DNA of 42,729 nucleotides. It comes from an uncultured Pelagibacteraceae bacterium. Its GTDB lineage: Bacteria; Pseudomonadota; Alphaproteobacteria; Pelagibacterales; Pelagibacteraceae. The notes below the pieces were generated by a model, which saw nothing but the letters and a program-made list of their open reading frames with translations, did not search any database and was not told where the DNA came from. The DNA lies in the NCBI GenBank assembly GCA_902559565.1, contig CACEIH010000001.1, positions 1 to 42,729 on the forward strand. Direction: 5' to 3'. Of the stretch, positions 19,846 through 42,604 are shown piece after piece (positions within the stretch are counted from its first letter, which is position 1; each line of letters starts with the position of its first letter). The translations under genes and the position numbers were made by a program.

Positions 19846-20625
19846 ATGAATAAAAAAATTAAAAAAATTCTTAATAAAAAAAATAAATCTAAGATTGTTT
19901 GTTTAACTGCATATTCCAAAAATATTGCTTCAATTCTAGATAAACATTGCGACCTAGTATTAGTAGGAGACTCTCTTGGCTCAGTTCTTTATAATTATAA
20001 ATCTACCAAAGAGGTAACATTAAAGAAAATGATTGATCATTCTAAGAGTGTTAGATTTGGTGTAAGAAAGTCACTAATGGTAGTAGATATGCCATACAAT
20101 ACTTATCGAAATCCAAAAGAAGCAATTAAAAACGCAAAATTAGTTATAAAAAAAACTAAATGTGATGCAGTAAAGTTAGAGGGAGGAAAAAAAATAATAT
20201 CTATAGTTAAATCTTTAGTAAAGAGCAAGATACCAGTAATGGGCCACTTAGGTATTTTACCTCAAACTGAAAAAAAATTTACGTTTAAAGGTAAAAAATT
20301 ATCTGAAAGAAATAGAATTTTAAAAGATGCTCAACTATTAGAAAAAGCAGGTATTTTTTCAGTAGTATTAGAGTGTGTAGAAACAAAATTATCAAAGAGA
20401 ATAACTGAAACTTTAAAAATTCCAACAATAGGTATTGGATCTTCAGTCTTTTGTGATGGCCAAGTGTTAGTGACTGATGATTTGATTGGTTTAAGTGAAA
20501 GTAGATTTAGATTTGTAAAGAAATACTTAAACACATCTAAATTAATTAATTCAGCGGTTAAAAGTTTTAAATCAGAAGTATCAAAAAAAAAATTTCCTAA
20601 AACGAAACATTCTTTTAAATATTAA
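19846..20625 (+). CDS. panB: 3-methyl-2-oxobutanoate hydroxymethyltransferase
   Basis: 'LVLVGDSLGSVLYNYKSTKEVTLKKMIDHSKSV', 'VKLEGGK', 'PVMGHLGILPQ', 'PTIGIGSSVFCDGQVLVTDDLIGL'. Confidence 0.9.
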   Translation: MNKKIKKILNKKNKSKIVCLTAYSKNIASILDKHCDLVLVGDSLGSVLYNYKSTKEVTLKKMIDHSKSVRFGVRKSLMVVDMPYNTYRNPKEAIKNAKLVIKKTKCDAVKLEGGKKIISIVKSLVKSKIPVMGHLGILPQTEKKFTFKGKKLSERNRILKDAQLLEKAGIFSVVLECVETKLSKRITETLKIPTIGIGSSVFCDGQVLVTDDLIGLSESRFRFVKKYLNTSKLINSAVKSFKSEVSKKKFPKTKHSFKY

Positions 20626-20630
20626 ATTTA

Positions 20631-22112
20631 TTAACCCATTGTAAATGGATCTGACATTGGTTTGTCAGAAGAATTATACCAAGTTGTTTTAATTCTAGTA
20701 TATTCTTTAATTGACTCTATTCCTGCTTCTTTACCATAACCACTATCTTTAATTCCACCAAAAGGCGCCATTGGAGAAATTAGTCTATAAGTGTTTATGA
20801 AAACTATCCCTGCTCTTATAGCTTTTGAAACTCTTAGTCCCCTTGCAAAATTAGATGTATAAACCCCGGACGATAATCCATATTTATTATCATTCATTTT
20901 TTCTATTACTTCTTCTTCATTGCTAAATTTCATCACTGATAAAATTGGACCAAATAATTCATTTTCTGCAACAGGTAATTTATGATTTTCACATTCAATT
21001 ATCGTTGCTGGAAAATAATAACCCTTATTTGAAATTGAAGATCTTTTGCCTCCACATCTTATTTTTCCACCTTGTTCTATCGTAGCTTTGATATTTTTTT
21101 CAATATTTTCTAATTGTTTAAAACTATTAAGAGGTCCCATTTGAGCATCTTCTTCCATCGGACTTCCTAATTTTATTTTTTCTGCTTTATTAATTAATTT
21201 TTTTAGAAATTCATCATAAATTTTCGTTTGTAAATAGAGTCTTGATCCAGCTATGCAGCTTTGTCCGCTAGCTCCAAATATACCAGCAGTGATCCCATTC
21301 AAAGCATTTTCTTGATCAGCATCATCAAAAACAACCACTGGGCTTTTGCCTCCAAGTTCTAAACTTACTTGTGATAAATTTTCAGCAGAATTTTTTATAA
21401 TATGTTTTGCAGTTTCTGGACCTCCTGTAAAAGCGATTCTTTCTACAAGATTGTGAGTAGTTAATGCCTTACCACATGGCTCACCTAAACCTGTGATTAT
21501 ATTAATAACACCCTTAGGTATTCCTGTTTTTTCAATTAGTTTTCCAAATTCTAGAAGAGTTACTGGTGCTAATTCTGATGCTTTAATTACAACCGTATTT
21601 CCCATTGCAAGAGCTGGAGCCAACTTAACTGCTGTCAAAAGCATTTGTGAGTTCCAAGGGATAATCGCTGCAACAACACCTATAGGTATTCTTGTTGTTG
21701 TAACTTGCATATCTGGTTTATCAATTGGAACTACAGTCCCTTCAACTTTGTCTGCTAATCCTGCAAAATAATCATAATATTCTGCTATATAATTTGCTTG
21801 AGTTTTAGTTTCTCTATAAAGTTTTCCTGTATCAATTGTTTCAATTTTACCAAGATGTTCTGCATTAGCTCTCAGTTGTTCTGCTATCAGCATTAAGTAC
21901 TTTGCTCTTTCTCTTGGATGAAGTTTTGACCAATTGTTTTCGAAAGCATTTTGTGCTGCTTGAACAGCTTTATCTACATCTTTTTCATCTGCTTCGGGAA
22001 CTGTTGCCCAAACTTCATTATTTTCGGGATTTAAAGATTCTATTTTTTTTCCTGATGATGAGTTTACCCACTCACCATTAATATACATTTTAAAATCTTG
22101 AATTTTTGACAT
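20631..22112 (-). CDS. NAD(P)-dependent aldehyde dehydrogenase
   Basis: 'IIPWNSQMLLTAVKLAPALAMGNTVVIKASE', 'VSLELGGKSPVVVFDDAD', 'GASGQSCIAGSRL'. Confidence 0.93.
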   Translation of the reverse strand: MSKIQDFKMYINGEWVNSSSGKKIESLNPENNEVWATVPEADEKDVDKAVQAAQNAFENNWSKLHPRERAKYLMLIAEQLRANAEHLGKIETIDTGKLYRETKTQANYIAEYYDYFAGLADKVEGTVVPIDKPDMQVTTTRIPIGVVAAIIPWNSQMLLTAVKLAPALAMGNTVVIKASELAPVTLLEFGKLIEKTGIPKGVINIITGLGEPCGKALTTHNLVERIAFTGGPETAKHIIKNSAENLSQVSLELGGKSPVVVFDDADQENALNGITAGIFGASGQSCIAGSRLYLQTKIYDEFLKKLINKAEKIKLGSPMEEDAQMGPLNSFKQLENIEKNIKATIEQGGKIRCGGKRSSISNKGYYFPATIIECENHKLPVAENELFGPILSVMKFSNEEEVIEKMNDNKYGLSSGVYTSNFARGLRVSKAIRAGIVFINTYRLISPMAPFGGIKDSGYGKEAGIESIKEYTRIKTTWYNSSDKPMSDPFTMG

Positions 22113-22895
22113 TTAACTATTAATAAAATTTCTTATATTCATATTAACATCATCTGCACACTCTATACTACAAAGATGTTTTCCATTTTTAATCTCAACA
22201 TACCTTGAATTAACTAAATCTTTTGTTAATTCTTTAGACATAGCTGGTGTTGATCCTGAATCATCAGAGCCTGTTATAACTAAAGTTTTTGAAGTAATGT
22301 CTTGTATTACCTGAGTATTATCTTCATGATTAGCAAACAATTGATAAGCTTTAAGGAAATTTTTATGGTCTTCAGGTTTTTTTGATAAAATATTCATAAA
22401 TAAGTTATATGTTTTTGGATTTTTCTCTAAATATTCATCTGTAAACCATCTTTTAAGTGCTTGTTTTGAAATTGGTTTGTTTAACTTTGCTTGGTTATAT
22501 CTATCAAGAACAAGAGATCTTTCCTCACTTGATCTTTTATATGTTGTTCCAATCAATATTAGTTTATTAATTTTATCTCCCGATTTCGATGCAAAATCTA
22601 AAGCAATTAAAGAGCCTAACGAAAAGCCAATTAAATGAATTTTATCAATATTGAGATATTCTAAAATTTCATTTAGTTGATTAGAAAAATCACCAAGATT
22701 TAATTTCTCTTTTTTACATGGAGTTTTTCCATGGCCGAGTAAATCATAAGTTATAGTTGAAAATTCATTTAAATTTTCTATTTGTGGTTTCCACATTTGA
22801 TGATCAAGACCGACACCATGTATGAACACTAATGGAGTATTATCCTTTTTTATATAGATATAGTGATTTTGATTTGGGTCAAAATTATTAGACAT
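22113..22895 (-). CDS. Alpha/beta-fold hydrolase
   Basis: 'PLVFIHGVGLDHQMWKPQIENL', 'IHLIGFSLGSLIALDFA' nucleophile elbow, 'NGKHLCSIE' His region. Confidence 0.88.
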   Translation of the reverse strand: MSNNFDPNQNHYIYIKKDNTPLVFIHGVGLDHQMWKPQIENLNEFSTITYDLLGHGKTPCKKEKLNLGDFSNQLNEILEYLNIDKIHLIGFSLGSLIALDFASKSGDKINKLILIGTTYKRSSEERSLVLDRYNQAKLNKPISKQALKRWFTDEYLEKNPKTYNLFMNILSKKPEDHKNFLKAYQLFANHEDNTQVIQDITSKTLVITGSDDSGSTPAMSKELTKDLVNSRYVEIKNGKHLCSIECADDVNMNIRNFINS

Positions 22896-22899
22896 TAAA

Positions 22900-23487
22900 T
22901 TATTTTGGATCTAATCCCATCTCTTTCATATCTTGATAACGATCACCTGTTCTTGCGTGCGCTCTTCCACTTGAAGCTCCACCAATTGCAATAACAATCT
23001 CATCATTGAAAGGAGCATCATGAATAGTGAATTCGTGTGTTAAATAATAAGGTCTTAAACCTGAATCTGTTTTGTGCATCATAGGTATAGATATTTTTGA
23101 ACCTGCAGGACCTCTAGTATTAGTAAAACTTAGATAAGATGTTCCACCAACAGCATCTCTAAATTTATTTCCAAATCTTAAAGTATGAATAAATGCTGAT
23201 GCATGTTCTATTTCACCATCTAAACCTACTGTTCCAGCTTTACCATAAGCTAATATTTTTTCTGGAGATCCAATTTCTTTTATAAGTTCTGGTACCAGAA
23301 TATCACCAAGCTTTGGAGCTAAATCTAAAATAATTGGCTTGAGATCTTCCACAAATCCTTTGCCATGCCATGGATTTTTAAAAACTGCTGCAACTGAAAC
23401 TAATAAAACAGGCTCTTTTGCTTTTTTTCCACCTTCAATGAAAGTTTTATCTATAAATTTATTAAACTTTCTTAATTCAAGTTCCAT
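22900..23487 (-). CDS. DUF1185 / amino-acid-synthesis (AA_synth) family protein
   Basis: 'AVFKNPWHGKGFVEDL', 'AYGKAGTVGLDGEIEHASAFIHTLRFGNKFRDAVGG', 'TIHDAPFNDEIVIAIGGASSGRAHARTGDR'. Confidence 0.75.
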   Translation of the reverse strand: MELELRKFNKFIDKTFIEGGKKAKEPVLLVSVAAVFKNPWHGKGFVEDLKPIILDLAPKLGDILVPELIKEIGSPEKILAYGKAGTVGLDGEIEHASAFIHTLRFGNKFRDAVGGTSYLSFTNTRGPAGSKISIPMMHKTDSGLRPYYLTHEFTIHDAPFNDEIVIAIGGASSGRAHARTGDRYQDMKEMGLDPK

Positions 23488-24653
23488 TAACTTGCTTTCT
23501 CTAAGCTTGAAGGATCAATATTTATTTTTGGAATAACTTCATCATTAAATAATTTTATACTTTTCATGCAAGCCATATGATCTATCCCAGGAAAATTAGA
23601 CCACACTTGAAGATTTTGTAAATTAAGTTCTGATTGTAATTCTTTTATTTTACCAACAACATATTCAGGTGTCCCAAATAATAAATTTCTCTTATGTAAA
23701 AATTCATAATTAAGTAAATCCAATTTATGTTTTGTTTCTGGTAGTTCTTCTCCAGGATCCATATGGTTACCTAATCCTCGCCAATGACAGACCCATCTCA
23801 TATAATTTATTATATGTTCACCAGCTAATTTTTCAGCCTCTTCCATAGTTTCAGCAACAAACATATCTCTTACCAAAGAAATTCCTTCCCCTAGAGGAAC
23901 TTCTCTATTTTCTGCTTTTGACTTAGCATCTCTATATATTTCAAACCTTTTCTTTAAAGCTTTTACAGTGGGTATCCACATAATAGTGTTTAAACCATTT
24001 TGAGCCGCCCATTCTATTGACCTTGCACCATCAACTACTTGCCAAATTGGTGGGTGCGGGCTTTGTTTTGGTTTTGGTACAACACTTATTTTTTTAATTT
24101 CATTTGTTTTTGTATCAACAAATTTCTTGTCTGGAGGGCTCATATCATGCTGCCAAATAAAATTAGGAGAAGGATAGGTATAAAATTCTCCTTTGTGATC
24201 AAAAAACTCTTCAGTCCATGCTTTTTTCATTATGGTTAATGTTTCATCAAATAATCTAAAATTTTTTGCTTGATCTTTTAGATCAGCTTCTTTGTTCATG
24301 TTTATTGCTTCTCTACCATATATCCCTCTTCCTATACCAACCTCAACTCTTCCATTTGACAATTGATCTAATAACGCAATGTCCTCAGCAAGTCTGATAG
24401 GATTATGAAAAGTTATTACATTACATGCTTGTCCAATTCTAATTTGTTTAGTTCTAGCAGCCGCATCAACACCCATCATTATTGGGTTTGTGCAAGATTC
24501 CATTCCTTCGTGATTGAAGTGGTGTTCTGTGTACCAAATGGAGTCCCAATTATTTGCATCACAATAAGTTGTGATTTCTTTAGTTTCATCAAGTAATTGA
24601 TTGTAAGGCTTATGTTTCCAGTTAGTGGTATTACAAAAATATCCAAATTTCAT
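23487..24653 (-). CDS. Luciferase-like (LLM class) flavin-dependent monooxygenase
   Basis: 'WDSIWYTEHHFNHEGMESCTNPIMMG', 'HNPIRLAEDIALLDQLSNGRVEVGIGRGIYGREA'. Confidence 0.9.
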   Translation of the reverse strand: MKFGYFCNTTNWKHKPYNQLLDETKEITTYCDANNWDSIWYTEHHFNHEGMESCTNPIMMGVDAAARTKQIRIGQACNVITFHNPIRLAEDIALLDQLSNGRVEVGIGRGIYGREAINMNKEADLKDQAKNFRLFDETLTIMKKAWTEEFFDHKGEFYTYPSPNFIWQHDMSPPDKKFVDTKTNEIKKISVVPKPKQSPHPPIWQVVDGARSIEWAAQNGLNTIMWIPTVKALKKRFEIYRDAKSKAENREVPLGEGISLVRDMFVAETMEEAEKLAGEHIINYMRWVCHWRGLGNHMDPGEELPETKHKLDLLNYEFLHKRNLLFGTPEYVVGKIKELQSELNLQNLQVWSNFPGIDHMACMKSIKLFNDEVIPKINIDPSSLEKAS

Positions 24654-24794: not shown

Positions 24795-25538
24795 ATGAAA
24801 CTTACTAAATTAGAACCAAAATTTATTAAAAAGCATAACCCTAGGATAGGGTTAATTACCTTGGCTAGTGATTTTAGAATTGAAAAAGACTTCAATAATG
24901 TGATTCATGGAAAGGAAATAGATTTATATTCTAACAGAATAAAATCTTATAACCCGCTAACAAATGAAACATTAAAAAAAATGGCAGAAGATATCACTGA
25001 TGTTACTAAAGAAATTTTACCAGATCAAAAATTAGATTGTGTTGCGTATGGATGCACTTCAGGTACGATTGCTGCAGGATATAAATCTATTTATGATAAG
25101 GTAAATTTGGCTAAACCTAATACAAAAGTAACAACACCAATTACATCAGCAATTAATGCATTGAAGTTTTTAAAAGTAAATAGATTATCAATTTTTACCC
25201 CCTATACTGACCAAATTAATCAATCTGTCATAAATTATTTTAAAAAAGAAAATATCGAAATATCAGAATTATCTTTTTTTGATATTGCATCAGATATAGA
25301 TATAGGCAAAGTGGATCCAAATCATTTATTTGAGGTTTTAATTAAAAAAGATTTATCAAAAAGTGATGCACTATTTGTTTCTTGTACAGCTTTACCAGTT
25401 TTATCGATTATTAATGATTTAGAAAAAAAATTAGGTAAACTTATTTTATCTAGTAACCAAACTTTAATTTGGGATACACTCAAACAAATAAATTTCAAAA
25501 ATAAAGTTGAAGGATATGGTGAATTATTTAATAATTAA
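24795..25538 (+). CDS. Asp/Glu racemase superfamily protein, EutA / maleate isomerase / arylmalonate decarboxylase-like
   Basis: 'RIGLITLASDFRIEKDF', 'DCVAYGCTSGTIAAG', 'TPITSAINALKFL', 'DALFVSCTALPVL'; two Cys motifs. Confidence 0.8.
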   Translation: MKLTKLEPKFIKKHNPRIGLITLASDFRIEKDFNNVIHGKEIDLYSNRIKSYNPLTNETLKKMAEDITDVTKEILPDQKLDCVAYGCTSGTIAAGYKSIYDKVNLAKPNTKVTTPITSAINALKFLKVNRLSIFTPYTDQINQSVINYFKKENIEISELSFFDIASDIDIGKVDPNHLFEVLIKKDLSKSDALFVSCTALPVLSIINDLEKKLGKLILSSNQTLIWDTLKQINFKNKVEGYGELFNN

Positions 25539-25540
25539 AT

Positions 25541-26710
25541 ATGTTATTTACTAAAGAAGAATACAAACAAAGACTTTCAAAAGTACAGAAGATGATGAAA
25601 AAAAAAGGCATCGAACTTTTAATTTCACACGACACAAATAACATGAATTACTTAACAGGTTATGATGCATGGTCTTTTTACTACGCACAATGTGTAATTG
25701 TACATATTAATTCCGATGAACCATTGTGCTTTGTAAGAGATCAAGATGCAGGTGGAGCTTTTATTAAAACTTATCTAAAAAAAGAAAATATAATTGTTTA
25801 CGATGAACATTATATTCATACTTGGCCAAAACATCCATATGATTATTTGGTAAAAATAATCAAGGATAAAAAATGGGATAAACTTTCAGTAGGCTTGGAG
25901 ATGGATGCGCATTATTTTACAGCGTTTTGTTATGAAAAAATTAAACAAGGTTTGCCTCAGGCAAAAATAAAAGACTCAGAAAGACTAGTTAATTGGGCAA
26001 GGTTAATAAAATCAGATGCAGAAATAAATTATATGAAATCTGCTGCAAAAATTTCAGAAATTGGAATGAAAACAGCTTTTGATGTAATAAAACCTGGAGT
26101 TCGACAATGCGATGCTGTTGGTGAGATACAAAAAGCATTGTTTTATGGTACTCCAGAATTTGGTGGTGAATATGCAAGTATCGCAACATTGTTACCAACG
26201 GGTAAGGGCACATCTGCTTCGCATTTGACTGCAACTCAAGATAAGTTTGTTGAAGGTGAAGCAACAATTATTGAGCTCTCAGGAGTTTATAAAAGATATC
26301 ATGCACCAATGGCGAGGACTGTCTTATTAGGAAAACCCGATCAGTTAAAGATCGATACAATGAAAAAGACAATTGAAGCACTGCAAGCAGGAATTGATGC
26401 AACAAAACCTGGCAACACAGTTGATGATGTGGCTCAGGCATTTTGGAAAATTTTAGATAAATATGGAATAGAAAAGAAATCTAGAACTGGTTATTCAATT
26501 GGAATTGGTTATCCACCTGACTGGGGTGAACATACTCTAAATATCTATAAAGGCGATATGACTCCATTAGAGCCTAATATTTGTTTTCATATGATTGCTG
26601 TAATGCAATTTGGAAATTGGGGAGTAGAAGCCTCTGAAGCAATAAGGGTTACGGATAAAGGAGCTGAATTATTTTGTAATTTATCTAAAGAACTTCACGT
26701 TAAAAGCTAA
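25541..26710 (+). CDS. M24-family hydrolase resembling ectoine hydrolase (DoeA/EutD)
   Basis: 'NMNYLTGYDAWSFYYAQCVIV', 'LVNWARLIKSDAEINYM', 'SRTGYSIGIGYPPDWGEHTLNI', 'EASEAIRV', recognised from memory as DoeA-like. Confidence 0.75.
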   Translation: MLFTKEEYKQRLSKVQKMMKKKGIELLISHDTNNMNYLTGYDAWSFYYAQCVIVHINSDEPLCFVRDQDAGGAFIKTYLKKENIIVYDEHYIHTWPKHPYDYLVKIIKDKKWDKLSVGLEMDAHYFTAFCYEKIKQGLPQAKIKDSERLVNWARLIKSDAEINYMKSAAKISEIGMKTAFDVIKPGVRQCDAVGEIQKALFYGTPEFGGEYASIATLLPTGKGTSASHLTATQDKFVEGEATIIELSGVYKRYHAPMARTVLLGKPDQLKIDTMKKTIEALQAGIDATKPGNTVDDVAQAFWKILDKYGIEKKSRTGYSIGIGYPPDWGEHTLNIYKGDMTPLEPNICFHMIAVMQFGNWGVEASEAIRVTDKGAELFCNLSKELHVKS

Positions 26711-26766: not shown

Positions 26767-27846
26767 ATGAATAAAGAATTCGTAAAATTTGATAAAGTAG
26801 ATAAGAGTTACGACGGTAAAACATTAGTCGTAAAAGATCTTCAATTAGATATTGAAGAAGGTGAGTTCGTAACAATGTTAGGACCTTCTGGTTCTGGAAA
26901 AACTACTTGTCTAATGATGTTGGCTGGATTTGAAACACCAACACACGGTGAAATTTACTTAGATGGAAAAGCAATATCAAGTATTCCTCCTCACAAAAGA
27001 GGAATTGGGATGGTGTTTCAAAACTATGCTTTATTTCCACACATGACTGTTTATGAAAATTTAGCATTTCCACTAAGAGTGAGAAAAATTCCAAAAGATG
27101 AAGCTGATAAAAAAATTGATAAAGCATTGTCGATGGTATCGTTACAAGGTTTTGCTGACAGAATGCCAGGTCAGTTATCAGGTGGACAACAACAAAGGGT
27201 TGCTGTAGCAAGATCCTTAGTATTTGATCCACAATTAGTTTTAATGGATGAACCTTTAGGAGCTTTGGATAAAAATTTAAGAGAGAGTATGCAATATGAA
27301 ATAAAACATATTCACGAAAGTATTGGTGTAACAGTTGTTTATGTTACCCATGACCAAAGTGAAGCTTTAACTATGTCAAACCGAATAGCAGTATTCAATG
27401 ATGGGAAAGTTCAACAACTTTCAAGTCCTGATGAGCTTTATGAAAAACCAGTTAATTCTTTTGTTGCAGAATTTATTGGTGAGAATAATACTTTTGCTGG
27501 TGAGGTTTCAGATATTTCGGGTGGAAAATGTAAAGTAAAGGTAGCTAATACAGAAATATTAGCAAACCCTATATCAGTAAAAGGAAAAGGTGAAAAAACA
27601 AAAATTTCTTTGAGACCAGAAAGAGCTTTGATTAATCCAAGTGACAAAATGGACAACATTCACACAGGAAAAATTGAGGAAGTAATATATCATGGAGATC
27701 ATACAAGAGTTCGTATTAACCTTTTAGGTAACAATGAATTTATTTTAAAAGTTCCAAATAGCTCAGCCAATATGGATATTAAGCTTGGCAAAGATATCAA
27801 AATCGGGTGGAACAGTGAAGACGCAAGAGCTCTAGATCCCAAGTAA
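26767..27846 (+). CDS. ABC transporter ATP-binding protein (PotA / polyamine-opine type)
   Basis: Walker A 'GPSGSGKTT', 'LSGGQQQRVAVARSLVFDPQLVLMDEPLGALD', C-terminal TOBE-type domain. Confidence 0.95.
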   Translation: MNKEFVKFDKVDKSYDGKTLVVKDLQLDIEEGEFVTMLGPSGSGKTTCLMMLAGFETPTHGEIYLDGKAISSIPPHKRGIGMVFQNYALFPHMTVYENLAFPLRVRKIPKDEADKKIDKALSMVSLQGFADRMPGQLSGGQQQRVAVARSLVFDPQLVLMDEPLGALDKNLRESMQYEIKHIHESIGVTVVYVTHDQSEALTMSNRIAVFNDGKVQQLSSPDELYEKPVNSFVAEFIGENNTFAGEVSDISGGKCKVKVANTEILANPISVKGKGEKTKISLRPERALINPSDKMDNIHTGKIEEVIYHGDHTRVRINLLGNNEFILKVPNSSANMDIKLGKDIKIGWNSEDARALDPK

Positions 27847-27904: not shown

Positions 27905-27938
27905 CTGTTTTTTAAAAAAACGTTTAAACGGAGGAAAA

Positions 27939-29063
27939 ATGAAGACAATTAGTAAATTATTACTAGCCATTTCTTTTGCTATCTCTGTAACTACTTCAGC
28001 ATTTGCTACAACAGTAACAGCTGTGTCTTGGGGTGGAGCTTATACAGAGTCTCAAAAGTTAGGGTACGGAGATCCTACTGCTAAGGCCCTTGGAATAAAT
28101 ATTGCTTGGGTTGACTATTCAGGTGGATTATCTGAGATCAAAGCACAAAAAGAGGCTGGCAAAATTACGTGGGATATTATCGACGTTTTTGCTATGGATA
28201 CTATCAATGGATGTGACGAAGGATTATTTGTTGAATTTGATTTTGACAAAGACTTCCCACCTGCACCAGATGGAACTCCAGCAAGTAAAGATTTCTTTAC
28301 TGATATGCCTAGCAAATGTGCTGTTGGAAATATTCTTTACTCATGGAACTATGCTTACAGTACAAAAGCATTCCCAGGTAAAGGACCAAAAACAATCAAA
28401 GATTTTTTTAACACTAAAAAATTCCCTGGAAAAAGAGCTATCTACAAAAGCGCTTTAACAAACTTAGAGATTGCTTTAGCTGCAGATGGTATCAAACCAG
28501 GAAAAGGTGGAAAGAAAATCTACAAAGCTTTAAACACTGAAAAAGGTGTTGAAAGAGCAATGAACAAGATCAAAGAGTTATGCGCAAACGACAACTGTGT
28601 ATTTTGGTCTGCAGGTGCTCAACCACCAGAATTGTTAGTTTCAGGTGAAGTTGTAATGGCTACAGGTTGGAATGGTAGATTCTTTAACGCAGAAGTTGGA
28701 GAAGGTGCACCAATCAAACAAGTATGGGATGGACAAGGTCTTGACTACGAGTACTTCGTGCAAGTTAAGGGTGGACCAAACGATGCTAATGGTATGGCTA
28801 AAAAAGCTTTGGCTATGATGACTAACACTGAAATGTTAGCTGGTAGTGCAAAATATATTGCTTATGCTCCTTGGAGAAAATCTTCTATAGCTATTATGGA
28901 AGCAGGAGAGCCTTGGTATAAAGATGGTAAGACTAATATGGTACCACAAATGCCAACAGCACCACAAAACACTAAAAACTATTTCTTAGTTGACCCTATC
29001 TTCTGGGCTGACAACGGAACTGAGCTTGGTGAGAAGTGGGAAGCTATGAAAGCTGGTCTATAA
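27939..29063 (+). CDS. Periplasmic solute-binding protein (PotD / polyamine-like)
   Basis: RBS GGAGG before ATG 27939; signal peptide 'MKTISKLLLAISFAISVTTSAFA' then 'TVTAVSWGGAYTESQKLGYGDP'. The ORF-track start (TTG 27876) coincides with the -35 box and is rejected. Confidence 0.93.
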   Translation: MKTISKLLLAISFAISVTTSAFATTVTAVSWGGAYTESQKLGYGDPTAKALGINIAWVDYSGGLSEIKAQKEAGKITWDIIDVFAMDTINGCDEGLFVEFDFDKDFPPAPDGTPASKDFFTDMPSKCAVGNILYSWNYAYSTKAFPGKGPKTIKDFFNTKKFPGKRAIYKSALTNLEIALAADGIKPGKGGKKIYKALNTEKGVERAMNKIKELCANDNCVFWSAGAQPPELLVSGEVVMATGWNGRFFNAEVGEGAPIKQVWDGQGLDYEYFVQVKGGPNDANGMAKKALAMMTNTEMLAGSAKYIAYAPWRKSSIAIMEAGEPWYKDGKTNMVPQMPTAPQNTKNYFLVDPIFWADNGTELGEKWEAMKAGL

Positions 29064-29100: not shown

Positions 29101-29131
29101 AAGGGCGGTTATTTAATAACCGCCCTTTTTA
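29101..29131 (+). terminator. Intra-operon Rho-independent terminator between the binding protein and permease genes
   Basis: Perfect 12-bp stem AAGGGCGGTTAT-TTA-ATAACCGCCCTT plus U-tract, 7 bp before the permease ATG at 29135. Confidence 0.85.
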
Positions 29132-29134
29132 TTT

Positions 29135-30388
29135 ATGAGCTCAGAATCACAACAAATTTTAACAACAGATGGAATACCTTTAGAGGTAAGTCTAAAAAAA
29201 GCTGAAAGAAGAAATAAAATAAAAGCTTTCTTGCTAGTTGCTCCTTTATTATTATTTTTAATCATCACATATGTGTTTCCTATTGGCGATATGCTTATGA
29301 GAAGTGTTGATGATAAAATGGTAACTGAAATGCTTCCTAAAACATTTAAAGCAATGGAGAAGTGGAATGGAAAAGAATTACCTGAAGAAGAAGTTTTTGA
29401 AGCTTTTTATTTAGATTTCAGACAATTAGTAGATGAAAAACGTGAAGGAAAATTATCTACACAACTTAATTACACAAAGAATGGTTTCAAAAGTATTATT
29501 AAAAAATTAAGAAGAAAATCAAAAAATTTTGAAGAAGGAAATTACAAAGAACAAATAATGGCTGTTCATAAAAGATGGGCAGATGTTGAATATTGGAAAG
29601 CAATTAAAAGAAGAGCTCCAGCATTTACTGGTCAAAAATATCTAAAAGGTATGGATATGTATAAGAATGAAAATGGAGAAATAGTAAGCGTTGAAGAAGA
29701 TAGGAGAATACATAGAATTTTATGGCTTAGAACTTTAGAAATTGCATTTTTTGTAACATTATTTTGTTTTTTGATGGCCTATCCAATAGCTCATTTGTTA
29801 GCTACTTTACCTATGAAGTACAGTAACTTACTAATGATCTGTGTCCTTCTTCCGTTTTGGACATCATTACTCGTAAGAACTGCGAGTTGGATGATCTTGT
29901 TGCAACAACAGGGAGTCGTAAATGATTTATTTGTTGGAATAGGTTTAGTTGCAGATGATGCAAGACCACAAATGATGTATAATAAAACTGGAACATATGT
30001 TGCCATGACACAAATTTTGCTCCCCTTTATGGTTCTGCCTCTTTACAGTGTAATGAAAACTATTTCACCAAGCTTAATGAGAGCTGGAAAATCTTTAGGC
30101 GGAACGCCAATAGTTGCTTTCTGGAAAGTATATTTTCCTTTAACAATTCCTGGTATTGGAGCAGGTTGTTTGTTGTGTTTTATATTAGCAATCGGTTATT
30201 ACATTACACCAGCCTTAGTTGGAGGGGCATCTGGTACTTTAATTAGTAACCAAATTGCTTTTCATATGAAGAGTACACTTGATTGGAGTTTTGCTTCAGC
30301 AATGGGTTTAATGTTGCTTAGTGGAGTATTGGCGATTTATTGGGTTTATAACAAACTAGTTGGAATAGATAATATTAAATTAGGATAA
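29135..30388 (+). CDS. ABC transporter permease (PotB type) with a long insertion after TM1
   Basis: Multi-TM; EAA-like 'SLMRAGKSLGGTPIVAFWKVYFPLTIPGI'; about 135-aa hydrophilic insert. Confidence 0.92.
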   Translation: MSSESQQILTTDGIPLEVSLKKAERRNKIKAFLLVAPLLLFLIITYVFPIGDMLMRSVDDKMVTEMLPKTFKAMEKWNGKELPEEEVFEAFYLDFRQLVDEKREGKLSTQLNYTKNGFKSIIKKLRRKSKNFEEGNYKEQIMAVHKRWADVEYWKAIKRRAPAFTGQKYLKGMDMYKNENGEIVSVEEDRRIHRILWLRTLEIAFFVTLFCFLMAYPIAHLLATLPMKYSNLLMICVLLPFWTSLLVRTASWMILLQQQGVVNDLFVGIGLVADDARPQMMYNKTGTYVAMTQILLPFMVLPLYSVMKTISPSLMRAGKSLGGTPIVAFWKVYFPLTIPGIGAGCLLCFILAIGYYITPALVGGASGTLISNQIAFHMKSTLDWSFASAMGLMLLSGVLAIYWVYNKLVGIDNIKLG

Positions 30389-30393
30389 ACAAA

Positions 30394-31248
30394 ATGGCTT
30401 TACCAAAACACACAGAATTACATTACAGAATTTGGCACTACTTTTACTTATTTATTTGTGGGTCAGTTTTCTTTTTTTTAATTGCACCACTATTTGTAAT
30501 ATTCCCCCTTTCTTTTAATGCAGAAGAGTTTTTAAGTTTTTCTGATGGGATGAAAAGTTTGGATCCAGATGCTTTTTCATTGAGATGGTATAAAGATATG
30601 ATTTATGGAACAAAAAACCCATGGGGTCTAGCAGCTAAAAATAGTTTTATAATTGCAATTTTTGCAACTATAGGATCTGTATTGCTTGGAACTGTTGCTG
30701 CATTAGGATTAAGCAGCAGACATATGCCATATAAGGGTATTATCATGGCGATACTAATCTCTCCAATGATTGTTCCTTTAATTATTTCTGGTGTAGCAAT
30801 ATTTTTCTTTATGGCAAAAGCTGGATTAGCAGCTACACACACAGGAATAGTTCTTGCACATATTATTTTAGGGACACCATTTGTTGTAATTACTGTTACA
30901 GCGACATTATCAGGATTTGATCATAGCGTAACAAGAGCTGCAGCAAGCCTTGGAAGTAATCCAGTAAACACTTTTATGAAAATTACATTACCCTTAATAT
31001 TACCTGGTGTTATTTCTGGTGGATTATTTGCGTTTGTAACATCATTTGATGAAGTTGTGGTTGTTTTATTTTTAGCTGGTCTTGAAAATACAACTATTCC
31101 GATTCAGATGTGGACGGGTTTAAGAGAACAGTTAAGTCCAACTATTCTTGCAGTTGCAACTTGTCTAATTATTTTGTCAACATTAATATTAGTTACCGCT
31201 GAGCTTTTAAGAAGAAGATCTGAGAGACTCAGAGGAATAAACCGATAG
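30394..31248 (+). CDS. ABC transporter permease (PotC type)
   Basis: 'TRAAASLGSNPVNTFMKITLPLILPGVISGGLFAFVTSFDEVVVVLFL'. Confidence 0.93.
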   Translation: MALPKHTELHYRIWHYFYLFICGSVFFFLIAPLFVIFPLSFNAEEFLSFSDGMKSLDPDAFSLRWYKDMIYGTKNPWGLAAKNSFIIAIFATIGSVLLGTVAALGLSSRHMPYKGIIMAILISPMIVPLIISGVAIFFFMAKAGLAATHTGIVLAHIILGTPFVVITVTATLSGFDHSVTRAAASLGSNPVNTFMKITLPLILPGVISGGLFAFVTSFDEVVVVLFLAGLENTTIPIQMWTGLREQLSPTILAVATCLIILSTLILVTAELLRRRSERLRGINR

Positions 31249-31260
31249 TAAAATCATTTA

Positions 31261-33483
31261 ATGAAAATTAAGAACGTAGTGGTGATTGGCTCTGGAACAA
31301 TGGGTAGTGGTATTGCTGCTCACTTATGTAATGCAAATGTACCCGTAACTTTACTTGATTTGAAAACAGAGATAAGTGAAAAAGCTAGAGAAAGAATTCA
31401 TAAGTCAAGACCTCCTTTACTAATTGATAAATCTAAAATTAATAATATTAAAGTTGGAAATATTTCAGATGATTTTGATGTAGTTAAAGATGCAGATTGG
31501 ATTGTTGAAGCAGTAGTGGAAAGAATAGATATCAAACATCAAATTTATGAAAAGATATTTAAGGCAAGAAAAGATGGAGCTATAGTCTCATCAAATACAT
31601 CATCAATTCCAATTAAAGTTTTATCTGAACATTTAACAGATATAGAAAAAAAAGATTTTTGTATTACACACTTTTTTAATCCTGTCAGATATATGGGTCT
31701 GCTTGAGATTGTTAAAAATGAAAACAATGATCTTAATAAGATTAATAAATTAAAAGAATTTTGTGAAGTAGAATTAGGCAAGGGTGCAATAGTTTGTAAC
31801 GATACTCCAGGTTTTTTAGGAAATAGAGTTGGTGTTTATGCAATGCAAGTTGCTATGACAGAAGCGTTTAAGATGAAACTTTCTGTTGAAGAAGCAGACG
31901 CAATATTTGGAAGACCAATGGGTATTCCTAAAACAGGTGTGTTTGGACTATATGATTTAATTGGTATCGATTTAATGGCTGATGTATTGAAAAGTTTTGT
32001 TAAAGAATTACCAGAGACAGATGAGTTTCATCAAGTTGCAAAAGAAATTCCATTAGTAAAAAAATTAATTGAGACTGGCTATACAGGAAGAAAAGGTAAA
32101 GGTGGATTTTATCGAATGAACAAAACTGGAGCCACTAAAGTAATGGAAGCTATTAATCTTGAATCTGGAGATTATTCTCCTAGCAAAAAGATTGATGTTA
32201 AATCAGATAAAGTAGATCTAAAGACATTAATCAATAGAAAAGATAAGTATGGTGAATATGCTTGGTCAGTTTTATCTAAAATAATTAAATATGCTTCCTC
32301 ATTAGTACCGGGTATTACAAAAGAATTTAATGATATTGATGAAGCAATGAGACTAGGTTTTAATTGGTCCAAAGGTCCTTTTGAGATGCTTGAAGAAATA
32401 GGTGTAAAAAATTTCTTTAATAGAGTTGATGACTTTGCTGGTAATAAATTTTTAGAAAATTTATCAAAAACTAAAAATGAAGATTTTTATGGTGAGAGAC
32501 AAAAATACACGAACATAGAAACTTTAGGAAAAGTTAAAAAAACAGCATCTAGTTTAGATGGAAACGACTCTGCAAAAATCTATAGATTTAATGATTATAA
32601 TATTGTTGAGTTTACTACTAAAGCTAACGCTCTAGACTATGACTCAATGGATGCTTTAAAAAAAGCAACAGATAAACCTCTAATAATTATAAATGAAAGT
32701 ATGCAATTTTCTGCAGGTGTGAACTTAACTTACACAATGCAATTTGCAGACAAAAAAGATTTTAAATCGATTGAAAAATTTATTAAATATTTTCAAGAAA
32801 CTTGTAAGCATTTAAAATATTCAAAATATCCAGTAGTTTCAGCTCCATCAGGATTAACTTTAGGTGGTGGATTTGAGGTAATGGTGCAAAGTAATTTTGT
32901 TGCATCTCATACAAATATTGTTGTTGGTCTAGTAGAAACTATTGTGGGTTTAATTCCAGCAGGGGGTGGATGTAAGGAAATGTTAGCAAGATGGCTTGAT
33001 ACTGATGAGGCAAAGAAAGATCCAAATTACGCACCTTTAAAAGTCTTTGATATAATTGGATATGGTAAAACAGCTACCTCACCAGTTGAAGCGGAACCAA
33101 TGAAATATTTGAGACCTTCTGATAAAAAAATAATGAATAGAAATAGTTTATTAGAAGTTTCCAAAAAAATTATTACAGATAATAAAGATTTTAAGTCACC
33201 AAGTGAGCTTGAATTTAAGCTTCCAGGAAAAGCTGTAAGAGGGGAAATGGATAAAATTTTAGATAAACTTTATAATGATAAAGTTATTTTAGATCATGGT
33301 GTCGAAGTTGCGAAAGAATTAGCACATGTTTTAAGTGGAGGAGATACCACAATTGATAAAACTTTATCGGAAGATGATTTATTTAAATTAGAACTAGATG
33401 CTTTTATGAGATTAATTGAAACTCAAAAAACTCAAGATAGAATAAAGCATACTTTAGCCACTGGTAAACCTTTAGTTAATTAA
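31261..33483 (+). CDS. 3-hydroxyacyl-CoA dehydrogenase / enoyl-CoA hydratase fusion (HAD domain N-terminal, crotonase domain C-terminal)
   Basis: 'VVIGSGTMGSGIAAHL', 'FCITHFFNPVRYMGLLEIV', 'CNDTPGFLGNRVG', then crotonase-type 'GLTLGGGFEVMVQSNFVASH...GLVETIVGLIPAGGG'. Confidence 0.92.
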   Translation: MKIKNVVVIGSGTMGSGIAAHLCNANVPVTLLDLKTEISEKARERIHKSRPPLLIDKSKINNIKVGNISDDFDVVKDADWIVEAVVERIDIKHQIYEKIFKARKDGAIVSSNTSSIPIKVLSEHLTDIEKKDFCITHFFNPVRYMGLLEIVKNENNDLNKINKLKEFCEVELGKGAIVCNDTPGFLGNRVGVYAMQVAMTEAFKMKLSVEEADAIFGRPMGIPKTGVFGLYDLIGIDLMADVLKSFVKELPETDEFHQVAKEIPLVKKLIETGYTGRKGKGGFYRMNKTGATKVMEAINLESGDYSPSKKIDVKSDKVDLKTLINRKDKYGEYAWSVLSKIIKYASSLVPGITKEFNDIDEAMRLGFNWSKGPFEMLEEIGVKNFFNRVDDFAGNKFLENLSKTKNEDFYGERQKYTNIETLGKVKKTASSLDGNDSAKIYRFNDYNIVEFTTKANALDYDSMDALKKATDKPLIIINESMQFSAGVNLTYTMQFADKKDFKSIEKFIKYFQETCKHLKYSKYPVVSAPSGLTLGGGFEVMVQSNFVASHTNIVVGLVETIVGLIPAGGGCKEMLARWLDTDEAKKDPNYAPLKVFDIIGYGKTATSPVEAEPMKYLRPSDKKIMNRNSLLEVSKKIITDNKDFKSPSELEFKLPGKAVRGEMDKILDKLYNDKVILDHGVEVAKELAHVLSGGDTTIDKTLSEDDLFKLELDAFMRLIETQKTQDRIKHTLATGKPLVN

Positions 33484-37490: not shown

Positions 37491-38945
37491 ATGAGTAGAT
37501 CAAAATCGCTCTACAACGCTGATTTAGCACCAACTCCATCAAATAAAAAAAATTGGGGATGGTTCGAGATTTTCAACGTGTGGGCAAATGATGTTCAAAG
37601 TTTATTTGGATATACTTTAGCAGCATCATTATTCTTAGCCTCAGGGTTAAATGGCTGGGCAGTATTTTTAGCATTAATACTTGCTGGCTTTTTCATCATG
37701 TGGTTAGTAAATCTTTCTGGAAAACCAAGTGTTAAACACGGAATACCTTATCCAGTATTTGCTAGGGTAAGTATGGGTGTGTTTGGAGCAAACTTTCCTG
37801 CTATGGCAAGAGGGCTTGTGGCTATGTTCTGGTATGGAGCACAAACTTATGCAGCATCAACTGCAGTAGCACTTTTAATTACAGGTATTACTGGTAACCC
37901 AGGCACTGAGATGTTCTTAGGAATGACAGGAGTAATGTGGGTATCATTTATATTTGTATCAGCTTTCCAAGTTTACTTATTTTGGCAAGGTGTAGACCTA
38001 GTAAAAAGGTTCTTAAACTTTGCAGGACCAGCGGTTTATGTTGTTATGGTTCTATTAATGTTAGTAATTTGGTTTAAAGCTGGTGGAGGTCTTTTATCAG
38101 AAGTAGGTGAAATATTTTCTGGAGGAGCAAGATCAGGTGGATTTGAAGGTTTAGGTTCATTTGGAGCTTTCCTAGCAGTATTTTCAATTATGGTAGGATA
38201 TTTCGCTGCCGTAGTAATCAACTTTGGTGACTTCGCTAGATTTGTTAAAAATGAAGATGAAATGAAAAAAGGTAACCTATGGGGATTAGTAGGTAACGTA
38301 ATATTCTTCTCATTTATTACTTTAATGATTACTGGTGGAACAATCGCTATCTTTGGAGAATATGTAGCAAATCCAACTGATATGGTAGCTAAAGTAGACA
38401 ATCTTGCATTAACAATAGTTGCAGCATTTGCATTCTTTGCAGCAACAGTTGGTATCAACATGGTTGCAAACTTTATACCGCCAGCGTATGACCTTGCAAA
38501 CTTAATGCCAAGCAAAATCAATTTTAGAACTGGTGGTTTAATAACTGCTGCATTTGGTTTTGTTATTGGTGGTATGTGGGTTGCAGTAATTACTCAAATG
38601 GGACTATTTCCATTTGTAAACACTTTAGGTGCAATTTTAGCTCCTGTGTTTGGTATAATGATTACTGATTACTATATAATCAAAAAACAAAGATTAGATG
38701 TTGATGATCTATTTACTGACTCGCCTAAAGGTAAGTATCACTATAATGGTGGTTTTAATGGTAAAGGTATGTTGGCATGGGTACTATCAGGGTATATTGC
38801 TGTTGGTACAGTTTGGCCAAACATTTTATTCTTAGGAATGGATGATTTCTTTGCTAACTTAGGTGGTGGCGGTGGATATGCTTGGATAATTGGAGCATCA
38901 TTAGGTGCTTTAATTCACTTAGCAATATCATCATCAAGAAAATAA
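37491..38945 (+). CDS. NCS1-family nucleobase / allantoin / hydantoin permease
   Basis: 'NVWANDVQSLFGYTLAASLF', 'GKPSVKHGIPYPVFARVSMGVFGANFPAMARGLVAMFWYGAQTYAASTAV'; adjacent to allantoin catabolism genes. Confidence 0.92.
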   Translation: MSRSKSLYNADLAPTPSNKKNWGWFEIFNVWANDVQSLFGYTLAASLFLASGLNGWAVFLALILAGFFIMWLVNLSGKPSVKHGIPYPVFARVSMGVFGANFPAMARGLVAMFWYGAQTYAASTAVALLITGITGNPGTEMFLGMTGVMWVSFIFVSAFQVYLFWQGVDLVKRFLNFAGPAVYVVMVLLMLVIWFKAGGGLLSEVGEIFSGGARSGGFEGLGSFGAFLAVFSIMVGYFAAVVINFGDFARFVKNEDEMKKGNLWGLVGNVIFFSFITLMITGGTIAIFGEYVANPTDMVAKVDNLALTIVAAFAFFAATVGINMVANFIPPAYDLANLMPSKINFRTGGLITAAFGFVIGGMWVAVITQMGLFPFVNTLGAILAPVFGIMITDYYIIKKQRLDVDDLFTDSPKGKYHYNGGFNGKGMLAWVLSGYIAVGTVWPNILFLGMDDFFANLGGGGGYAWIIGASLGALIHLAISSSRK

Positions 38946-38960
38946 TTAAATTTTAAATTT

Positions 38961-38992
38961 AAGCCCGTCAATTTTATTGGCGGGCTTTTTTT
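38961..38992. terminator. Terminator hairpin between converging NCS1 and allA genes
   Basis: AAGCCCGTCAAT-TTT-ATTGGCGGGCTT plus T-run (one G.U pair). Confidence 0.8.
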
Positions 38993-39494
38993 ATATTTGG
39001 AATTCTAGAGTAATATTCTCTTTATTTAAATCGTGAAGAACTAAATTATCTCCACTACCCAATCTATCTATAACTAAAAAATTCATATCTTCTGTTGAGA
39101 TTAATGGGAAATGCCAAACACCAGGATTATAGTTTACACCAATTCCTTTCGGTATAATAAAAGATTCTAACTTGTTTAAATCTGGTTTGTCACCTTCGGG
39201 AGCCACAAAAGCTAAAAAAGTTGTTTCTTTCATCGGAATAAAAGCTTGGCTTCCAAGTGGGTGCTTTTCCATCATATCAACTTTCATAGGAAAAGATCTT
39301 TTGAGAGCAGAAAATATACTAATAGTAGACTCACCATTATCCTTTTTAGTATTTAAATTTGCAATTCCATCATATCGTTTTGCGTAACCATTATTAATTT
39401 CAATAGGCTTGATATCTGCAGTTGTTATCATATCACCAAATTTTTTAAAATTTTGTTTAGTTATTGGTTTAGGTTTAACTACTAAGCTTTTCAT
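38991..39494 (-). CDS. allA: Ureidoglycolate lyase
   Basis: 'LTKQNFKKFGDMI'-like N-terminus, 'MEKHPLGSQAFIPM', 'GVGVNYNPGVWHFPLI'-like motif. Confidence 0.88.
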   Translation of the reverse strand: MKSLVVKPKPITKQNFKKFGDMITTADIKPIEINNGYAKRYDGIANLNTKKDNGESTISIFSALKRSFPMKVDMMEKHPLGSQAFIPMKETTFLAFVAPEGDKPDLNKLESFIIPKGIGVNYNPGVWHFPLISTEDMNFLVIDRLGSGDNLVLHDLNKENITLEFQI

Positions 39495-40474
39495 ATTTTT
39501 TTTCCAAAAATTCTAAATCTAGAAATACCACCATCAGGAAATATATTTATTTTTATATGATTGATTTTATTTTTTTTCATTAAAGAATTTTTAAAACTAT
39601 GAGTTTTGTTAGCTGACAATTTTGTATTTTTTAATAAATATTTCCATTTGTTTGAAGAGTTTACAATTTGTTTAGAGCTTTTAGACGACAAATAAGCAGC
39701 TTGTAATGAACAGTAACTGGGATAATTTCCTTTAAAGTGATGAGTTGAGATTTCAATTTTATCTATTGAGCTTCCATCAATAGAATTCAAAATTAACCAA
39801 TCATTTCCTTTGCCTCTTCGTCTTCTAGTCTCCCAGCCATCACCCATATTTTTTGCTTTACCAGGGGCTAAAACATTTTCAGCTCTTCCAAAATGTTCAT
39901 TATTGCAAGCAATAACTGATGCTCCGTCTAATAATGAAGCAAGATTTATTTTTTTATTCTTAAATTTTTTTGATTTTGCAATCGAACCATATAATCTTAA
40001 TCTAGCAACACCACCATCAGGAAAAATGTTAAATTTAATATGTGTAAATATTTTATTGTTTTTGACTGAAAAAAAATGATGTGAATTAGCTTTAACCTTT
40101 TTTTTTGAAAGAATTGAAGTCCATTTAAATTGTTTGATTTTGTTTGAATTGGAATTAGCTCCTTCAATTGAGACCATTGAAGGCTGATTACCATTAAAAT
40201 GAGATGTATCTACGTCAATCTTAGAAATTTTTCCTGGCTTACCTAATTTTAAAACAATATAATCATGTCCTGAAGTTCTTTTTCTTCTAGATTCCCATCC
40301 ATCCATCCATTTTCCATGTTTATCAAAAACACCCTCTTTGAATACAGGAATGGTTGGGCTTATAATTCTATTAGCTGAAGCAAAAAAATCATCAGTTTTA
40401 TAAATAACTTTTGTACCCAGTCTTGGTTGAGCTAAATCTATTAACCCGTTAGTAAATATTATTTTTTCTTTCAT
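39491..40474 (-). CDS. alc: Allantoicase
   Basis: 'DLAQPRLGTKVIYKTDDFFASANRIISP', 'GKWMDGWESRRKRTSGHDYIVLKLG', duplicated 'GDGWETRRRRGKGNDWLIL' domain. Confidence 0.95.
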   Translation of the reverse strand: MKEKIIFTNGLIDLAQPRLGTKVIYKTDDFFASANRIISPTIPVFKEGVFDKHGKWMDGWESRRKRTSGHDYIVLKLGKPGKISKIDVDTSHFNGNQPSMVSIEGANSNSNKIKQFKWTSILSKKKVKANSHHFFSVKNNKIFTHIKFNIFPDGGVARLRLYGSIAKSKKFKNKKINLASLLDGASVIACNNEHFGRAENVLAPGKAKNMGDGWETRRRRGKGNDWLILNSIDGSSIDKIEISTHHFKGNYPSYCSLQAAYLSSKSSKQIVNSSNKWKYLLKNTKLSANKTHSFKNSLMKKNKINHIKINIFPDGGISRFRIFGKKI

Positions 40475-40475
40475 A

Positions 40476-41375
40476 TTATGAGTAATTTTTAATCCAATGT
40501 TTTGCTATATCAATTCTTTTACAAATCCACACATCTTCAAATTTAAGAACATAGTCTAAAAATTTCTTTAAAGATTGAATTCTACCAGGTCTGCCAACTA
40601 GTCTACAGTGTAGTCCAACTGACATCATTTTGGGATATGTTTTTCCTTCCTCATATAAAGTATCAAAGCTATCTTTTAAATAATTATAAAAATGATCACC
40701 AGTGTTAAATCCTTGGTTTGTTGCAAATCTCATATCATTGTTATCTAAAGTATAAGGGACAATCAGTTGTTTCTTTTTACCTCTATATTCCCAATATGGT
40801 AAGTCATCACTATAACTATCACTATCATATAAAAAACCGCCATCATCAAAAACTAAGTCTCTTGTATTTGGGCTACATCGACCTGTGTACCAACCCAACG
40901 GTCTAGAACCAAAAATATCTTTAATTGTTTTGATTGCAAGTTGCATATGTTTTTTTTCAGCAGATTTTTTTATATTTTGGTAGTCTATCCATCTGTAGCC
41001 ATGTGCAGCAATTTCATAATCACCATTTTTAATTGCATTACATACCTCAGGGTTTTGTTTTAATGCTAACCCTACACCAAAAATTGTTACAGGGATTTTT
41101 TTTTCTTTGAACAATTTATCTAGTCGCCAAAATCCTGCTCTTGAACCATATTCATAAATACTTTCCATGCTTATATGTCTTCCCTTAATTGCTTTAGCGC
41201 CAATAATTTCTGATAAAAAAGTCTCTGAGTATTTATCTCCATTTAATATCGAATTCTCTCCTCCTTCTTCATAATTCAATACTATTTGAAGAGCTAATTT
41301 TGCATTATTAGGCCATGATATTTTTTTTCCTCTGCTACCATAACCAACAAGATCTCTTGAGTTTTTTTTAACCAT
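40476..41375 (-). CDS. puuE: Allantoinase PuuE (polysaccharide-deacetylase-like fold)
   Basis: 'RDLVGYGSRGKKISWPNNAKLALQIVLNYEEGGENSI', 'EIAAHGYRWIDYQNI', 'GWYTGRCSPNTRDLVF'. Confidence 0.93.
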   Translation of the reverse strand: MVKKNSRDLVGYGSRGKKISWPNNAKLALQIVLNYEEGGENSILNGDKYSETFLSEIIGAKAIKGRHISMESIYEYGSRAGFWRLDKLFKEKKIPVTIFGVGLALKQNPEVCNAIKNGDYEIAAHGYRWIDYQNIKKSAEKKHMQLAIKTIKDIFGSRPLGWYTGRCSPNTRDLVFDDGGFLYDSDSYSDDLPYWEYRGKKKQLIVPYTLDNNDMRFATNQGFNTGDHFYNYLKDSFDTLYEEGKTYPKMMSVGLHCRLVGRPGRIQSLKKFLDYVLKFEDVWICKRIDIAKHWIKNYS

Positions 41376-41413
41376 GTATAATTTTAATTAAATTCTGATT
41401 TTTTTATAATTTT

Positions 41414-42604
41414 TTAATCTGAAATAGAATTAGACTTTATACCATTTAAGAAATTTATGCATTTCTTTAATTCACTAAGTTCAATAAATTCATCTACTTT
41501 ATGAGCTTGTTCAATAGAACCAGGACCACATACTACTGTACTAATACCAATTTCTTGAAATAAACCTGCCTCAGTTCCAAATGATACTACTTCTCTGGAA
41601 TTGTCACCAGTTAAACTAGCAACTAATTCACATGCCTCAGATTTTTTTACTCGATCAAATCCCGTAACTTCACCAATAATTTTTTTTGTAATTTTTGAGT
41701 TTTTAAACACTTTTTTCATTTCTGGTAATAGAATTTCATTTGCATATTTATCAATTTGGTCATTTAAAAATTTTCCATCTTCCTTAATAACTGGTCTTGT
41801 TTCCCAATTAATATGACATTTATCTGCAATAACATTATGAGCAATTCCACCAAAAATTCCGCCAACTTGTAAAGTTGAAAAAGGTGGATCAAAAATAGAG
41901 TCTTTTGGTGCTCTTTTTTTCAATTCTTCTCTTAGTTCAAGTAATTTATTTGCATACCTTGTAGCAAATTCAACTGCACTTACACCTTTGTGTGGTGCCG
42001 AGCTATGACCGGCTAAACCTTCAAAATAAGTTGTATATTCATAACAGCCCTTATGAGCATCAATAATTTTCATTTTTGTTGGTTCACCAATTATACAGAT
42101 ACCATTTTGAATATTTCTTTTTTTTAATTCTTCGATTAAAATTGGTGCTCCTATACAAGCTGTTTCTTCATCAAAAGTAAATGAAAAATGTATATCTCTG
42201 TTTAAATTTGTTTTTGCGTAGATTGGAGCAAAAGCCAATGCACAAGCAATAAAACCCTTCATATCACACGAACCTCTACCATAAAGCTTGTCACCTTTAA
42301 TAGTTGCTTTAAATGGATCGGTGCTCCAGCTTTTAGAAACTGGCACTGTATCTGTATGTCCTGATAAAATAATTGGTTTAGTTCCGTTAGTTTTTTTTGC
42401 TTTTAAAGTAGCAAAAAGGTTTACTCTTTTTTTATCCTCATCGAATGTTTTAAAAGATGTCGCTCCAAGTTTATGAAGGTAATCATCGCAATAATTTATT
42501 AAAGCACTGTTATCTTCTCCAGAAATTGTCCTAAAACCTATAAGGTCAGTTAAAATTTTTACTGAATTATTATATAATTCCTCTAAATTAATTTCTGTAC
42601 TCAT
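41414..42604 (-). CDS. M20-family deacylase, ArgE (acetylornithine deacetylase)-like
   Basis: 'LSGHTDTVPVSKSWSTDPFKATIKGDKLYGRGSCDMKGFIACALAF', 'FDEETACIGAP', 'IGEPTKMKIIDAHKG'. Confidence 0.88.
   Translation of the reverse strand: MSTEINLEELYNNSVKILTDLIGFRTISGEDNSALINYCDDYLHKLGATSFKTFDEDKKRVNLFATLKAKKTNGTKPIILSGHTDTVPVSKSWSTDPFKATIKGDKLYGRGSCDMKGFIACALAFAPIYAKTNLNRDIHFSFTFDEETACIGAPILIEELKKRNIQNGICIIGEPTKMKIIDAHKGCYEYTTYFEGLAGHSSAPHKGVSAVEFATRYANKLLELREELKKRAPKDSIFDPPFSTLQVGGIFGGIAHNVIADKCHINWETRPVIKEDGKFLNDQIDKYANEILLPEMKKVFKNSKITKKIIGEVTGFDRVKKSEACELVASLTGDNSREVVSFGTEAGLFQEIGISTVVCGPGSIEQAHKVDEFIELSELKKCINFLNGIKSNSISD

Follow-up and report, generated by a model that had tools for sequence, protein, structure and literature searches.

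In ectoine clusters EutA presumably acts together with EutB and EutC on hydroxyectoine, and the S. meliloti EutA protein scores 458 bits on the corresponding NCBIfam model, TIGR02990. The EutD/DoeA hydrolases are described by TIGR02993, on which the reference DoeA proteins of the Sinorhizobium and Leisingera ectoine clusters score 815-837 bits, while an M24 paralogue in a gamma-glutamyltransferase (GGT) cluster of Bradyrhizobium attains 435 bits. Among Pot-type ABC transporters, one of the PotD type reportedly ranks with the most abundant proteins of SAR11 (PMC8437039), and the PotD-annotated SAR11 binding protein SAR11_1336 is cited as an importer of DMSP and betaines (PMC13310141).

The window, which denotes the whole 42,729-nucleotide stretch of DNA analysed here, is contig 1 of a SAR11 (Pelagibacteraceae) genome of 767 kb that is 59% complete, and the named relatives closest to it are Pelagibacteraceae (SAR11) genomes obtained from single cells and metagenomes. 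It encodes an EutA-like protein and an M24 hydrolase, with the ORFs located precisely where the initial annotation had placed them and separated by 2 bases on the same strand (Table 1). The proposed likeness to EutA and DoeA is confirmed as well: the top NCBIfam models are TIGR02990 EutA (1.4e-56) and TIGR02993 DoeA (2.5e-137), and the top PDB sequence match of the M24 protein is the DoeA structure 6TWK, with all other M24 entries far lower. This resemblance to the ectoine proteins is not by chance. Both proteins nevertheless fall below the equivalog cut-offs of these models (192 vs 318 bits and 458 vs 613 bits, respectively), and are on their sequence scores genuine homologues that stop short of membership of EutA and DoeA. 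A DddP-type DMSP lyase was also considered as the identity of the M24 protein and rejected, with a score of just 30 bits. The M24 gene is present in 188 of the 247 genomes of the order, or roughly three in four of those sampled from SAR11. Across the same loci the two proteins evolve at unequal rates, EutA being the faster (mean identity of 65%, compared to 91% for M24).

Table 1. Features of the window in and around the eutA-M24 gene pair.
Feature	Position	Strand	Evidence
Divergent operon: luciferase-like monooxygenase, AA_synth (DUF1185), alpha/beta hydrolase, aldehyde dehydrogenase	20631-24653	-	
EutA-like protein, 247 aa	24795..25538	+	TIGR02990 192 bits, PF17645; cysteines C87, C197
EutD/DoeA-like M24 hydrolase with creatinase/prolidase fold, 389 aa	25541..26710	+	TIGR02993 458 bits; PDB 6TWK 3e-101
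Pot-type ABC transporter ATPase (PotA-like)	26767..27846	+	TIGR01187 potA 381 bits, above cut-off
Periplasmic substrate-binding protein (SBP)	27936..29063	+	PF13416; PDB 8JV1, 3e-172, 74% identity
Hairpin and T run between SBP and permease genes (likely partial terminator)	29101..29127	+	Consensus match only
Pot-type permease (PotB-like)	29135..30388	+	ORF; conserved order
Pot-type permease (PotC-like)	30394..31248	+	ORF; conserved order
3-hydroxyacyl-CoA dehydrogenase / enoyl-CoA hydratase fusion	31261..33483	+	PF02737, PF00725, ECH domains
ArgE-type acetylornithine deacetylase	41414..42604	-	TIGR01892 351 bits, cut-off 298; in allantoin-type operon

The pair is firmly tied to the genes of a transporter, a linkage that the initial annotation did not note and that offers the strongest clue to function. 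The M24 gene has an eutA-like gene directly 5′ of it in all 80 named loci, at a spacing of -4 to 6 bases, and in 77 of the 80, some of which end before the last permease, it is followed 3′ by potA-SBP-potB-potC, although the flanking genes are variable. The acyl-CoA fusion gene found after potC is optional, being absent from part of the 80 loci, and no Rfam elements were identified between positions 20000 and 38000 of the window. The best structural match of the SBP, 8JV1, bears the title "spermidine/putrescine-binding periplasmic protein"; it may be SAR11_1336, with the window SBP as its ortholog. The link between this type of transporter and EutD-like enzymes extends beyond SAR11. Of 240 genomes sampled from the class, 22 non-SAR11 genomes contain both an SBP of the same subfamily and an EutD-like M24, and in five of these, belonging to four families, the two are encoded at most 10 kb apart (expected count: 0.17; P ~1e-6, or 3e-5 counting four families). 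The transporter is found immediately 5′ of a DoeA-clade gene in two of the five (G472 and G358). A further contig with the SAR11 gene order and an M24 protein 89% identical to that of SAR11 is labelled as part of a Rhodobiaceae MAG (NYSO01000069.1), but is probably mis-binned.

We suggest that the pair supplies the enzymes of a combined transport and hydrolysis operon, eutA-M24-potA-SBP-potB-potC, which would serve to import and hydrolyse a small zwitterionic osmolyte by DoeA-type chemistry in a remodelled pocket, with a substrate that is probably not ectoine; we give this reading roughly even odds (a probability of about 0.5). We infer both the class of substrate and the direction of the reaction. 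The Pot-type transporter would bring in a small zwitterionic nitrogen-containing compound of the compatible-solute type, and the M24 hydrolase, with an active site of the ectoine-hydrolase kind, would open its ring or cleave an amidine or amide bond. The EutA-like protein, a predicted two-cysteine isomerase or racemase, may determine the stereochemistry of the substrate or product, or the geometry of a double bond in either. An N-acyl product would subsequently be deacylated by a separate enzyme, putatively an M20D protein in a sister family and possibly an ArgE-type protein in Pelagibacter.

That the window lacks EutB, EutC and EutE, as observed in the initial annotation, is confirmed, and this absence holds across the order. 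A search of 197 genomes of the order, including 149 that are at least 90% complete, found no EutE/DoeB (TIGR02994). EutC (at 1e-20) was likewise found in none of 97 genomes of the order, and EutB in none of 97 above the cut-off, with weak dehydratase-level matches in five; 59 of the 97 are at least 90% complete. These order-wide searches for EutE, EutB and EutC lead us to reject the suggestion that the remaining ectoine genes lie elsewhere in the genome. With these other ectoine genes lacking throughout the order, the pair probably acts on a related but different compound.

Phylogenetic analysis of 56 M24 sequences resolves a DoeA clade of 25 rows (support 100/100) and a separate clade of 12 rows (100/99), which contains the SAR11 proteins and that of a 1.6-Mb alphaproteobacterium (G436) and stands apart from the DoeB-adjacent (DoeA) clade. 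The SAR11 clade is probably the sister of the DoeA clade, with support of just 87/86 at the fork. When the active site is aligned to DoeA (6TWK numbering), Y52, R70, H238, E255, R269, R326, D338, W339, E341, H361 and E374, which by this alignment would constitute the DoeA catalytic centre, are unchanged throughout the ten SAR11 sequences. Conserved residues adjacent to them are replaced (G48A, V53Y/M, H54A/S/P, W67C/L, G69V/I, Y129H, S345N, R347Y/S and W367Q), as is W241 in most of the sequences, and the window protein carries V53Y, H54A, Y129H, S345N, R347Y, W367Q and W241A. Of the 83 DoeA-invariant positions the SAR11 proteins keep 59-68, while 77 are kept in two homologues from eut-type clusters outside the DoeA clade (L073 from Priestia, and L225). 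This count alone separates no functions, since two homologues encoded adjacent to DoeB-like genes (L247 and L248) also keep 66-68; these retain Y129, S345, R347 and W367, and it is on such specific positions that the argument for a difference would rest. Position 53 aligns with creatinase Arg64, a substrate-binding residue, and the changed residues are therefore likely to line the pocket, as their proximity to the catalytic residues also suggests. The predicted structure of the M24 protein is poor (pLDDT 52). The positions of the M24-metallopeptidase five-ligand motif look replaced as in DoeA in an alignment that contains no metal-dependent member. Because residues conserved among the homologues are replaced beside the catalytic ones, the substrate is probably not ectoine, and the alternative raised in the initial annotation, that the pair acts on another ring, is favoured by the combination of kept and replaced residues.

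The EutA-like protein is confidently modelled by AlphaFold (pLDDT 93), with maleate cis-trans isomerase as its best PDB fold match (TM 0.85) and arylmalonate decarboxylase (AMDase) as the second-best. C87 and C197 are invariant across 76 sequences. The fold and the two cysteines fit the maleate isomerase/AMDase superfamily, to which the protein belongs, and the invariance of both cysteines makes isomerase or racemase chemistry plausible. In another SAR11 genome (G030), the genes near that of the EutA-like protein include one for a gamma-glutamyltransferase and one for an M24 protein other than that of the pair (41%); this M24 falls in the clade that is GGT-linked in Bradyrhizobium.

Sister lineages, which the initial annotation did not consider, offer a candidate for the deacylation step. 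In a sister family (f2), the M24 gene, whose product shares 72% identity with that of the window, is preceded by genes for a Rieske oxygenase (GbcA-like) and an M20D deacylase, in that order, and M20D is found in nearly all genomes of this family sampled and just once in the family of the window. Other gene orders comprise a diaminopropionate ammonia-lyase-like gene, M20D, EutA and M24 (g3), and Rieske, semialdehyde dehydrogenase (SSADH), M20D, EutA and M24 (g10; a run of this kind is seen in G127), while in g4 an amidinotransferase gene lies 5′ of the M24 gene. Within 19 kb of the G436 genome, an M24 protein 51% identical to that of the window and the same Pot-type transporter are encoded together with an M20D protein, a second M24, a hydroxyproline dehydratase-like protein and sarcosine oxidase.

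For Pelagibacter, the ArgE-type protein is possibly a generic deacylase serving the pair. Of the 38 Pelagibacter genomes, 35 give a match above the cut-off, while no other genus tested does; within the family, most of these other genera also lack the M24 gene. In the complete Pelagibacter genomes checked the ArgE-type gene is located 10-26 kb away. This link is, however, confounded by phylogeny, as the presence of the gene differs from genus to genus, and the genes beside it in its operon are of the allantoin type. The deacylase pattern thus fits an N-acyl product in need of deacylation, with confounding at the genus level barring a firm claim. The ArgE-type gene is part of a purine/allantoin-type block (37491-42604), which comprises an NCS1 transporter gene followed by minus-strand genes that by eye include ureidoglycolate lyase-like, allantoicase-like and PuuE-like members.

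The main rival explanation, possible though doubtful in our estimation, is that the M24 protein is a divergent true ectoine or 5-hydroxyectoine hydrolase, in which case the Pot-type transporter would import ectoines, the hydrolase would yield N-acetyl-diaminobutyrate, and a non-DoeB deacetylase, the M20D protein in the sister family or the ArgE-type protein in Pelagibacter, would act next, followed by generic transaminases and dehydrogenases. DoeA being the nearest structure and the DoeA clade the probable sister of the SAR11 clade are consistent with this, as is the occurrence in other bacteria of M20-type deacylases beside DoeA-clade genes with no adjacent DoeB, namely in S. meliloti with EhuABCD (L076) and in a second cluster with eutB, eutC, atf and asnC (L234). 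The sister-family M20D protein furthermore scores best on the DoeB2 model (NF038260; 321 bits, cut-off 550), and the diaminopropionate ammonia-lyase-like gene of the g3 operon would suit such a route. Against it stand the residues that are kept both in the DoeA clade and in the more distant homologues of eut-type clusters but replaced in the SAR11 M24 proteins, the M24 score of 458 bits, close to the 435 bits of the GGT-linked paralogue, and an order devoid of EutB, EutC and EutE.

We attach little credence to a role of the pair in the breakdown of creatine or another guanidino compound, with the M24 protein as a creatinase-like amidinohydrolase. The M24 family includes creatinase, an arginine:glycine amidinotransferase gene is located directly 5′ of the M24 gene in one genome (G045), and in G436 the M24 gene lies 3′ of the sarcosine oxidase genes. 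The window protein, however, matches creatinase (1chm) at just 3e-9 and lacks the creatinase motif, having a glutamate of the DoeA type instead, and creatinase was rejected as the main reading because a true creatinase (C3:22878; 1chm, 9e-161), adjoining its own amidinotransferase, is encoded elsewhere in the same genome. In that region (C3:22878-23525; L001:1000-3335) the creatinase gene is directly followed by the arginine:glycine amidinotransferase gene, with a DMT-type transporter encoded upstream.

It is scarcely credible that the pair forms part of the adjacent, divergent luciferase-like operon and perhaps of a trigonelline-type pyridinium pathway, for although the enzyme set of that operon recalls the trigonelline (Tgn) pathway, it lies beside the pair in just 7 of the 80 loci. 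The others have in its place a transporter of the liv type or a cassette with aldehyde dehydrogenase, or lack any insert, so that panB is directly 5′ of eutA, and membership was rejected because these flanking cassettes swap. The operon is a cassette of 4.2 kb that some loci carry between panB and eutA and others lack, and it resembles a pathway that opens the ring of a pyridinium or a similar heterocycle; Tgn is mentioned in PMC8269262.

Returning to the import and hydrolysis of an osmolyte other than ectoine, we propose more tentatively that the locus may represent a so far undescribed osmolyte-catabolic operon of SAR11, in which the "polyamine" transporter supplies substrate to a DoeA-type hydrolase with a new specificity. 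If true, a so far unassigned marine nitrogen compound would be a regular food of one of the ocean's most abundant cell types. The identity of the substrate would provide the abundant PotD-type transporter with a catabolic partner, and could add SAR11 to, or remove it from, the consumers of ectoine or other osmolytes in the sea. For SAR11 genes, automatically assigned names such as "ectoine hydrolase" are without proof and possibly incorrect.

In comparison with known systems, the M24 protein shares with EutD/DoeA (TIGR02993, 6TWK) its family, length, catalytic-type residues and frequent EutA neighbour, but differs in its score (458 vs 613 bits), its probable sister-clade position, the changes at V53, H54, Y129, S345, R347 and W367, and the lack of EutE/DoeB. 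The EutA-like protein likewise resembles the EutA of ectoine clusters in sequence (~32% identity), in both cysteines and in its adjacency to an M24 gene, but scores 192 vs 318 bits and is found without the partners EutB and EutC. With maleate cis-trans isomerase and arylmalonate decarboxylase it has the fold in common, and its cysteines align with both catalytic-type cysteines of maleate isomerase, although identity is only ~20% and the gene context is another. The transporter resembles the SAR11_1336-type "PotD" system in its Pot-type operon and in an SBP 74% identical to 8JV1, which may correspond to SAR11_1336, a protein whose DMSP and betaine ligands are reported second-hand (PMC13310141). 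Finally, an accessory cluster of S. meliloti (EhuBACD-M24-M20-racemase) differs in that its M24 belongs to the DoeA clade (611.7 bits), its transporter is of the Ehu rather than the Pot type and an M20 gene is included in the operon, but like the SAR11 locus it has no EutB, EutC or DoeB alongside, and it shares with it the combination of a transporter, an EutD-like M24 and an EutA-like protein.
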